The translations under genes were made by a program, and so were the position numbers. Below, one piece after another: positions 8,636 to 30,144 of a DNA stretch of 64,000 nt (within the stretch, counting starts at the first letter, position 1; each line of letters begins with the position of its first letter). The stretch comes from Truepera radiovictrix DSM 17093 (lineage in GTDB: Bacteria > Deinococcota > Deinococci > Deinococcales > Trueperaceae). The DNA lies in contig NC_014221.1 in NCBI RefSeq assembly GCF_000092425.1, positions 1,307,001-1,371,000 of the forward strand, read 5' to 3'. Under the pieces are notes generated by a model. It saw nothing but the letters and a program-made list of their open reading frames with translations. It had not been told where the DNA came from and ran no database searches.

Positions 8636-9007
8636 ACGCGGAAGAAGAGGTTTGTTGCCACGCCGAGCGCGACTGCGCGCTTACACGCTGCTTTGATTTG
8701 CTCTGACGACGGAGCGAAGGGGCTAAGGCAGGATAGCGCATGAATCAAGCGGTCTCCTGCGATGGGAGGCGGGCAGCCGCCCGCCTCCGGCTTCTGCCGT
8801 GGGGAGCGCGTATGAGAACCACACGCAGTTGACACGACGGTCGTAGGGAGTCTCGTGTCAGCAGAAGGGACCAAGGAGACGTTGTGCGCCCTCTCAGGGA
8901 TGGAGGCGGCGACGCTCCCAGAGTCTCGGCCCCTCGTGGGGGTTGATGCCCCCTCAGGAATGGGCGTAGCCGTATCGGTATCTCTAGAAGGTGGGTGCTA
9001 AACCCGA
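8636..9007. other. Intergenic region holding a degenerate repeat element
   Basis: No gene is seen. The middle (8751-8853) is a diverged copy of the MITE-like element at 28772-28884. Downstream, two similar stretches (about 8889-8905 and 8949-8965, both CTCAGGxATGG-like) form a loose direct repeat 60 bases apart. It separates gldA from the convergently transcribed end of the inositol operon. Confidence 0.5.
8751..8853 (+). repeat. Degenerate copy of MITE-like element
   Basis: Read on the plus strand this stretch aligns with the minus strand of 28772-28884. Shared in the same order are TCCTGCGA, TGGGAGGCGGGC, CTCCGGCTT, GAGCG-GTATGAG, CAGTTGA and a terminal AGGGAGTCT against AGGAAGTCT. It differs by small deletions and substitutions and lacks an intact left terminal repeat. 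It carries no coding capacity. Confidence 0.6.
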
Positions 9008-27283: not shown

Positions 27284-28681
<1,398 letters not shown>

Positions 28682-28701
28682 GGTGCCTCCTTCTTCCCTC
28701 T

Positions 28702-28731
28702 TTTATACCCCCAGGGGGTATAAGAGTGCAA
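28702..28731 (-). promoter_or_regulatory. Persulfide dioxygenase promoter with CsoR/CstR-like operator
   Basis: Minus-strand TTGCAC (28731-28726), 18 bases, TATAAA (28707-28702). A perfect inverted repeat with arms TTATACCCCC (28703-28712) and GGGGGTATAA (28714-28723) around one base covers the spacer and -10. This is the GC-core, ATAC-flanked operator type of CsoR-family repressors, including the persulfide sensor CstR. No such regulator gene lies in the window. Confidence 0.75.
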
Positions 28732-28771
28732 GCTCGATATGACGTCCGCTTATAAACGTTATGCAGGGATT

Positions 28772-28884
28772 AGACTTCCTGCAAAAGTGCTGTTTTTTCA
28801 ACTGAGCGCGTCTGCTCATACTCGCTCTACTCGGCGAAAGCCGGAGCCGGGCGTTCGCCCGCCTCCCACTTTCGCAGGAGGTCT
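28772..28884 (-). mobile_element. 113-bp MITE-like element with ATT target duplication
   Basis: The element begins AGACTTCCTGCAAAAGTG and ends with the near-complement CACTTTCGCAGGAGGTCT, 18-base terminal repeats with two mismatches. ATT flanks both ends (28769-28771, 28885-28887). Removing element plus one ATT restores GTTATGCA-GGGAT-TGCATAAC, an interrupted palindrome, so it seems to have inserted into a hairpin target. The 3-bp ANT duplication is typical of some IS5-group transposons. It is too short to code for a transposase; a diverged copy is at 8751-8853. Confidence 0.7.
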
Positions 28885-28906
28885 ATTGCATAACAAGATG
28901 ACGCGC

Positions 28907-28932
28907 GCCCGCCCAGCAGCCGCTGGGCGGGC
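28907..28932 (-). terminator. Hairpin after sulfide:quinone oxidoreductase gene
   Basis: GCCCGCCCAGC and GCTGGGCGGGC form an 11-bp perfect stem with a 4-base loop, 25 bases past the sqr stop. There is no T-run; it is a terminator or 3'-protecting hairpin. Confidence 0.6.
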
Positions 28933-28956
28933 AGCATGGTCGGCGCCGGGGGGGAC

Positions 28957-30144
28957 TTAGGCGCGGCCGCGCAGCATCCCGTGCCAGTAGAGGTTGGGCA
29001 GCCCGACCTTTTTGAGCAGGTACATGCTGTAGCGCTCCTTGCTCTGGTCGAAGGGGAAGCTCTCGGCGGGGTTTTTGTCGTAGTCGAATTCGGCCAGGAT
29101 GAGGCTGCCGTAACCGGTCACCAGCGGGCACGAGGTGTAGCCGTCGTAGCTCGCGCCTAAGGGCTCCTTGGCGCGCAGCTTGAGGAGGTTTTCGGCGACG
29201 ACGGGCGCCTGTTTGCGGATCGCCGCCCCCGTCTTCGAGGTCGGCAGGCTGCTGTTGTCGCCGAGCCCGAAGACGTTTTTGTACGTCGTGTGTTGCAGCG
29301 TGTGTTTGTCGACGTCGACCCACCCGTCGGCGTTCGCGAGCGGGCTCTTTTTGATCACGTCGGGGGCGCTCATCGGCGGGGTGACGTGGATCATGTCGTA
29401 GGGCATGGTGACCTCGCCCCCGGGGTAGGTGAACACCGCCTCTTTGCGCTCGGGGTGGAGCGCTTTAAGTTCGTGCTCCCAGCGGGGCTCGAGGCCTTTA
29501 CGCGCGATGACCTTGTCGAGCTCGTCGGCGTACTTTTTCACCGCGAAGATGGTCTTTTTGGGAGAGCAGTAGAGCAGGCGCGAGCGCTCGCGCACCCCTT
29601 GGCGCCGGAAGGCGTCGTCGGCAAGGTACATGATCTTCTGCGGCGCGCCGCCACACTTGATCATCGTCGAGGGCTCCGTAAAGATGGCCGTGCCCCCCTT
29701 GAAGTTGCGGATGTTGTCCCAGGTCGACGTGACGGTGTTGTAGTCGTAGTTGCTGCAGACGCCGGTGCCGGGTTTGCCGACCGACTCTTTGAGCCCGGGG
29801 ATCTTCTCCCAGTCGAGCTGCAACCCCGCGGCGACCACCAGAAAGTCGTAGCTGTAGGTCTTGCCCGCGCGCGTCGTGACGCGGTTGTTCTCGGGATCAA
29901 AGCTCTCGGCGGCGTCTTGCAGCCAGGTCGCGCCGGGGGGGATGAAGTCGGCCTCGTTGCGTTCAGACGCCTCTTTGGGGAAGACGCCCGCGCCCACGAG
30001 CGTCCAGAGCGGTTGGTAGTAGTGCTTGGTGTTGGGCTCTAAGATGGCGACCTCGGGGGGGTTGGGGTGGTTGCGCAGCCGCGCGGCGACGGTCAGGCCG
30101 GCGGAGCCTCCGCCGACGACGAGCACTTCGACGTGGTCTTTCAT
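28957..30144 (-). CDS. sqr: Sulfide:quinone oxidoreductase
   Basis: SQR is a monotopic membrane flavoprotein that oxidises sulfide to persulfide or polysulfide and passes electrons to the quinone pool. The 395-residue protein has the FAD-binding VLVVGGGSAGLTVAARL, the second dinucleotide block DFLVVAAGLQLDWEKIPGL, and the FGLGDNSSLPTSKTGAAIRKQ block. Cysteines at C130, C164 (MIKCGGAPQK) and C339 (YTSCPLVTGYG) fit the redox pair plus third cysteine of SQR. The C-terminal hydrophobic helices that anchor SQR are around 365-390. It lies 52 bases after the DUF1641 gene and near the persulfide dioxygenase, giving a two-step route from sulfide to sulfite. Confidence 0.92.
   Translation of the reverse strand: MKDHVEVLVVGGGSAGLTVAARLRNHPNPPEVAILEPNTKHYYQPLWTLVGAGVFPKEASERNEADFIPPGATWLQDAAESFDPENNRVTTRAGKTYSYDFLVVAAGLQLDWEKIPGLKESVGKPGTGVCSNYDYNTVTSTWDNIRNFKGGTAIFTEPSTMIKCGGAPQKIMYLADDAFRRQGVRERSRLLYCSPKKTIFAVKKYADELDKVIARKGLEPRWEHELKALHPERKEAVFTYPGGEVTMPYDMIHVTPPMSAPDVIKKSPLANADGWVDVDKHTLQHTTYKNVFGLGDNSSLPTSKTGAAIRKQAPVVAENLLKLRAKEPLGASYDGYTSCPLVTGYGSLILAEFDYDKNPAESFPFDQSKERYSMYLLKKVGLPNLYWHGMLRGRA

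Follow-up and report, generated by a model that had tools for sequence, protein, structure and literature searches.

Target duplication at A-N-T triplets is characteristic of the ISL2 group of insertion sequences. The closest described systems are the miniature inverted-repeat elements (MITEs) of Porphyromonas gingivalis, BrickBuilt and MITEPgRS/MITE464, which are paired with the IS5-family elements ISPg1, ISPg4 and ISPg9 (PMC4596501), and ISCaa2 and ISCaa3 of Amoebophilus asiaticus, which belong to the ISL2 group of the IS5 family (PMC3196728). Here we describe a 113-bp MITE, copy E1, in a stretch of 64,000 nucleotides of Truepera radiovictrix DSM 17093 (the window). The MITEs of P. gingivalis resemble E1 in being non-coding, in having ends that match IS5-family elements and in starting with GAGAC..TTGCA, which is close to AGACCTCCTGC here; they differ from it in having full-length partners in the same genome, tandem-repeat interiors and irregular duplication lengths (PMC4596501). 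By their description, ISCaa2 and ISCaa3 are like the autonomous elements reported below (∼0.9 kb, two overlapping frames, a predicted −1 frameshift and 19–22 matching end bases), whereas no direct repeats were reported for them, unlike the elements here (PMC3196728). Our literature search found no paper joining Truepera with miniature inverted-repeat elements, and a search on the end sequences returned no transposon-themed title among the matches listed. The element is newly described and is an ordinary kind of mobile DNA, with an old, decaying family around it. Judged from its sequence, E1 is very probably a MITE that owes its movement to an IS5-family transposase acting in trans and duplicating an A-N-T target.

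A 113-bp element with inverted ends between ATT triplets

The first-pass annotation of the window had described an element of 113 bp whose 18-bp ends are inverted repeats differing at two positions and which has ATT on both sides. Such an element is indeed present at 28772–28884, and its end-to-end complementarity exceeds that of all 1000 local control stretches. Its parts are as follows:

28769..28771, no strand: left target duplication copy ATT; the same triplet stands beside the 99% identical copy E2, and related elements have 3-bp A-N-T duplications
28772..28884, plus strand: 113-bp non-autonomous element (MITE), copy E1; 118/119 identical to E2, flanks unrelated
28772..28789, plus strand: left terminal inverted repeat AGACTTCCTGCAAAAGTG; 16/18 identical to the right end
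28832..28843, no strand: interior hairpin CGGC-GAAA-GCCG
28848..28861, no strand: interior hairpin CGGGCG-TT-CGCCCG
28867..28884, minus strand: right terminal inverted repeat AGACCTCCTGCGAAAGTG (reverse complement); 18/18 identical to one end of the Deinococcus peraridilitoris IS5-family element
28885..28887, no strand: right target duplication copy ATT

E1 has what defines a MITE: at 113 bp it is too short to hold its own transposase, its terminal inverted repeats agree at 16 of 18 positions and the ATT duplication is found at both recent copies. Together with its flanks, E1 has a folding energy of −66.4 kcal/mol (z −6.3), and the covariance models of Rfam 15 gave no match up to E = 1 in 28500–29200. 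In view of its inverted ends and target duplication, E1 was not read as a REP/BIME (RAYT, Y1 transposase).

Intact and diverged copies in the genome

The window belongs to a single-contig genome of 3,260,398 bp, all of which was covered by the copy search. There is one further full-length copy, E2, which is identical to E1 at 118 of 119 positions, both ATT triplets included:

C1:1075619-1075737, minus strand: copy E2; 118/119 identical to E1, 260 kb from E1

E2 lies next to a PemK/MazF-like gene on one side; on the other is a very long gene whose end faces it. The identity between the two copies ends exactly at ATT on either side, and as the flanks of E2 are unrelated to those of E1, E2 moved as a unit. 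A decayed second copy had also been reported ∼20 kb from E1, at 8751–8853; we confirm it with slightly wider best bounds:

8747..8856, minus strand: old eroded family copy; 83/122 aligned columns identical; 95.9 bits with model R1, whose training set included this copy

The semi-global score of this copy was 106.3, compared to a maximum of 51.6 in ∼300 random stretches of the window, and pairwise alignment placed five diverged copies in all above this background (65.9 to 106.3 against the same maximum of 51.6). A covariance model made from these seven copies (two intact and five diverged) found four more with E < 0.001 (28.7–38 bits), and a second covariance model built on all eleven recovered the same eleven. 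Three weak matches of the second model in this genome (E 0.02 to 0.05), of which two are further places and one overlaps E2 on the opposite strand, were left out of the copy count. The genome thus holds at least 11 copies, two intact and nine diverged, which is the several-copy state of a MITE and bears out the genome-wide family proposed earlier; eleven is a lower bound because the model runs scored the best 150 of 4108 and the best 93 of 7376 first candidates. Ten of the 11 copies lie entirely outside predicted genes and the eleventh overlaps a gene end by ∼26 bp. A DNA search of 39 Trueperaceae genomes matched the element in this genome alone, and the covariance model gave a single weak match in each of five other genomes (loci L286–L290, E 0.008 to 0.03). 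Within the overall explanation that we favour, the nine diverged copies are very likely remnants of older rounds of movement.

Autonomous elements with matching ends in other genomes

Full-length insertion sequences with matching ends, which the first-pass annotation had suggested looking for, do exist, but in other genomes. BLAST against plasmids gave nine records with short matches; the ends were matched in two Deinococcus plasmids, one of which led to an insertion sequence, and phage records gave no match to the element. The insertion sequence, on plasmid pDEIPE01 of D. peraridilitoris, is an ATT-flanked IS5-family element of 886 bp whose ends are identical to the right end of E1 at 17/18 and 18/18 positions. 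It interrupts an IS3-family transposase gene, and when the flanks are joined with one ATT a single open frame results. Its two overlapping frames match HTH_Tnp_4 (PF13613), DDE_Tnp_4 (PF13359) and the IS5-family model NF033581, although the NCBIfam cut-off of 140 bits is reached by neither half of the split transposase alone; these matches on the split frames are those of an IS5-type DDE transposase, the type of enzyme expected of a mobiliser. The pDEIPE01 element is therefore like E1 in its ends and its ATT duplication, and unlike it in its length, in carrying a transposase and in its unrelated interior. Derivation of the E1 interior from the autonomous elements was rejected, as no match was longer than 9 bases.

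With the N-terminal half of the pDEIPE01 transposase as query, relatives were found in four of the 111 genomes searched in the class; the four include the sole other genome of the same genus that was searched, and the genome of E1 is absent from them. The element of the same-genus genome is 891 bp long and has AGT flanks, two other Deinococcota genomes have elements of 939 and 898 bp, both flanked by ATT, and an 883-bp element in a Chlorobiota metagenome-assembled genome (MAG) has unequal flanks, AAT and ATT. Four of the five autonomous elements therefore have identical A-N-T flanks (ATT, AGT, ATT and ATT), the 3-bp duplication of the ISL2 group of the IS5 family. The ends of E1 are thus shared with autonomous elements, as in other MITEs, with the partners residing in other genomes.

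Small elements with the same ends

An exact-end scan of a collection that represents 84,980 species by a single genome each returned 110 stretches (L068–L177), among which were many inward-facing pairs, 51 to 174 bp, in Arcicella aurantiaca and in a Cytophagales MAG. When two mismatches were allowed per end, we counted 62 pairs in the 110 stretches. The 3-bp flanks were identical in 46 of these 62 small elements (ATT 25, AAT 20, ATA 1) and unequal in the other 16; read as a 2-bp duplication, flank identity was seen in 3/62, and as a 4-bp duplication in 0/62. The elements of Arcicella aurantiaca and the Cytophagales MAG resemble E1 in their 18-bp ends, which are within one base of either of its ends, in the same 3-bp duplication and mostly in size (51–174 bp); they differ in belonging to another phylum, in their unrelated AT-rich interiors and in their many copies. 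Arcicella aurantiaca itself has many MITE-like elements with one 18-bp end in common, of 51, 95–105, 155–161 and 173–174 bp, and its 51-bp form is little beyond its two ends.

Small elements with such ends are also held by two of the Deinococcota genomes that have autonomous elements, and among the Deinococcota small candidates (best pair < 500 bp) the triplets agree in four of eight loci (ACT, AAT, AAT and ATG). Small A-N-T-duplicated elements of this kind lie at L301 (1206–1518) and L308 (1098–1518) in one Deinococcota genome, with the ends AGACCTCGGGCGAAAGTA / AGACCTCCGGCGAAAGTC. By eye, L301 seems to retain the end of a transposase gene frame, and it seems to represent the deletion route to a MITE, the classic one. 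One 18-bp end sequence, together with the A-N-T duplication, thus serves both IS5-family elements and MITEs, in Deinococcota as well as in Bacteroidota.

The mobilising enzyme

There is firm support for E1 as a MITE whose transposase was of the IS5 type and duplicated A-N-T triplets. An IS5-family DDE transposase of the HTH_Tnp_4 plus DDE_Tnp_4 type would bind and cut at the 18-bp ends, presumably recognising exactly these. Such an enzyme would be encoded by an element of ∼0.9 kb with two overlapping reading frames and would act in trans, cutting out or copying the small element and inserting it at an A-N-T triplet that is then duplicated. The interior, with two or three stable hairpins, appears to have a source other than the parent element.

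The first-pass annotation had suggested an IS5-group transposase as mobiliser. The family is supported by the matching ends and the duplication elsewhere; the mobiliser itself was not found in this genome, so that ‘mobilised by’ has to be read as meaning an earlier time or a different host. PF13359 had no match in this genome (as a control, it had a match in 1 of 14 well-known genomes), and the D. peraridilitoris transposase, used with its N-terminal half, had none either; a relative's C-terminal half likewise had no match here, in a search that had no positive control. A whole-genome search with the 20-base end (≤3 mismatches) found no ends beyond the four that E1 and E2 have, and a 16-base version gave 77 matches compared to 64 in the control, among which we saw by eye no inward-facing pair at a plausible distance. 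The orphan state of the MITE, that is, the lack of such a transposase in this genome, is well supported within these searches. The last jump may have used an enzyme since lost or one brought from outside. An orphan MITE is in this way tied to its enzyme type through its end sequence and target duplication across genomes.

Could resident elements have moved E1 instead? PF01609 has 15 matches in this genome, and 12 of the 13 that were examined have GGTTCTGTTGAC or GGGTCTGTCTGAC ends at CTAG, the remaining one being a relic without visible ends. Two IS5-family elements, both at CTAG sites, are multi-copy in the genome: one with GGTTCTGTTGAC ends (6 copies) and one with GGGTCTGTCTGAC ends (up to 8). 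Their presence in multiple identical copies is what recommends them as mobilisers, but their ends cannot be brought into register with AGACYTCCTGC, and CTAG, not A-N-T, is where they insert; we rejected them on account of their different ends and regard their involvement as highly improbable. Still more improbable is that segmental duplication or gene conversion, rather than transposition, gave rise to the E1/E2 pair: this would account for there being just two near-identical copies, but the identity halts at the ATT on both sides, the flanks beyond are unrelated, and related elements have the same 3-bp duplication.

A different reading sees the family as chiefly a structured intergenic element, a hairpin that serves some function as RNA or DNA (e.g. 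a transcript end or a protein-binding site), and E1 and E2 as a mobile offshoot with acquired transposon ends. In its favour, the interior has decayed less than the ends in the nine old copies, with a mean column identity of 0.68 in columns 47–61 and 0.67 in columns 62–80, compared to 0.44 and 0.46 at the ends. Moreover, 8 of 23 model pairs are changed on both sides (4.3 ± 1.3 in shuffles), as are 13 cells (5.5 ± 2.1 in shuffles), every copy is intergenic or nearly so, and E1 with its flanks folds strongly (−66.4 kcal/mol, z −6.3). However, it was the interior that led to the copies, and the alignment followed the structure, both of which favour better interior conservation, and intergenic places are where MITEs survive best anyway. 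There is also no Rfam match, the gene lists of the copies show no constant placement relative to genes, and the ends of the old copies resemble transposon ends. We consider this reading rather unlikely and prefer the MITE moved by an IS5-family transposase.

The nine old copies bear on this question through their ends, which are still like the intact ends (Fisher 3e-7 left, 5e-8 right, at bounds and positions that had been chosen by the model). Complementary arms with p below 0.1 were found in 0/9 of them and no matching triplet flanks were seen by eye; as arms and triplets are gone, they are assigned to the same kind of element by the similarity of their ends and interiors. Given the interior-based finding and the structure-fitted alignment, the interior conservation is just a hint, and an interior that outlasts the ends is a weak hint of retained function. 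It is quite unlikely, though conceivable, that the host kept the interior as a structured module at old sites after the transposon ends had decayed, in which case a MITE without a resident transposase would have seeded functional intergenic hairpins.

The target of E1

Excision of E1 had been said to leave an interrupted palindrome, and this is so: the flanks joined with one ATT give an 8-bp stem, GTTATGCA / TGCATAAC, with a 5-base loop.

28758..28765, no strand: left arm of split palindrome GTTATGCA; this copy only
28887..28894, no strand: right arm of split palindrome TGCATAAC; this copy only

A stem of that length is found at 1 of 709 A-N-T sites in the window. The further idea that the target is a hairpin was not borne out, as the joined flanks of E2 give a 2-bp stem. 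As a rule, a hairpin target was rejected, since stems of at least 7 bp occur at 1/62 small-element sites compared to 12/1240 control sites. The mean best stem at joined flanks was 3.58 for the 62 elements and 3.06 for the controls, a difference that we take as weak. The 322 fetched loci held no exact second example of the GTTATGCA/TGCATAAC palindrome.

The insertion locus

E1 sits in a 275-bp gap whose two flanking genes are both on the minus strand:

28957-30144, minus strand: upstream gene; Pyr_redox_2, with the sulfide:quinone reductase model below cut-off
27284-28681, minus strand: downstream gene; metallo-beta-lactamase and rhodanese domains

The names sqr and persulfide dioxygenase fit these domain matches, and the curated NCBIfam cut-off was reached for neither gene. 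The ‘sqr terminator’ and the persulfide dioxygenase ‘promoter’ that had been placed on the two sides of E1 found no support, as a consensus scan of 28600–29000 gave 0 of either; a GC-rich hairpin without a T run follows sqr.

We compared 16 loci around the downstream gene with that of E1. In three of them, from another genus of the family, the two genes of the pair are neighbours, 134, 70 and 80 bp apart, and in a fourth the reductase gene is farther off. In the genome of the same genus, where an empty site was sought, no reductase-like gene was found beside the downstream gene. The proposed comparison of empty sites was partly possible: in three related genomes the gene pair stands together with no sign of the element, but the gaps are not alignable base for base.

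The gap also contains a perfect palindrome, ATACCCCCAGGGGGTAT, at 28705–28721 before the metallo-beta-lactamase/rhodanese gene, which is the sole match in the window with ≤3 mismatches. The same three related genomes keep a looser ATACCC..GGGGGTAT-like palindrome before the downstream gene. We take the palindrome at 28705–28721 to resemble operators of CsoR/CstR-type regulators. In the direction of transcription E1 lies 50 bp upstream of it, and this position in the reductase/beta-lactamase gap, just upstream of a conserved palindrome, makes an effect of E1 on sulfide control a testable question.
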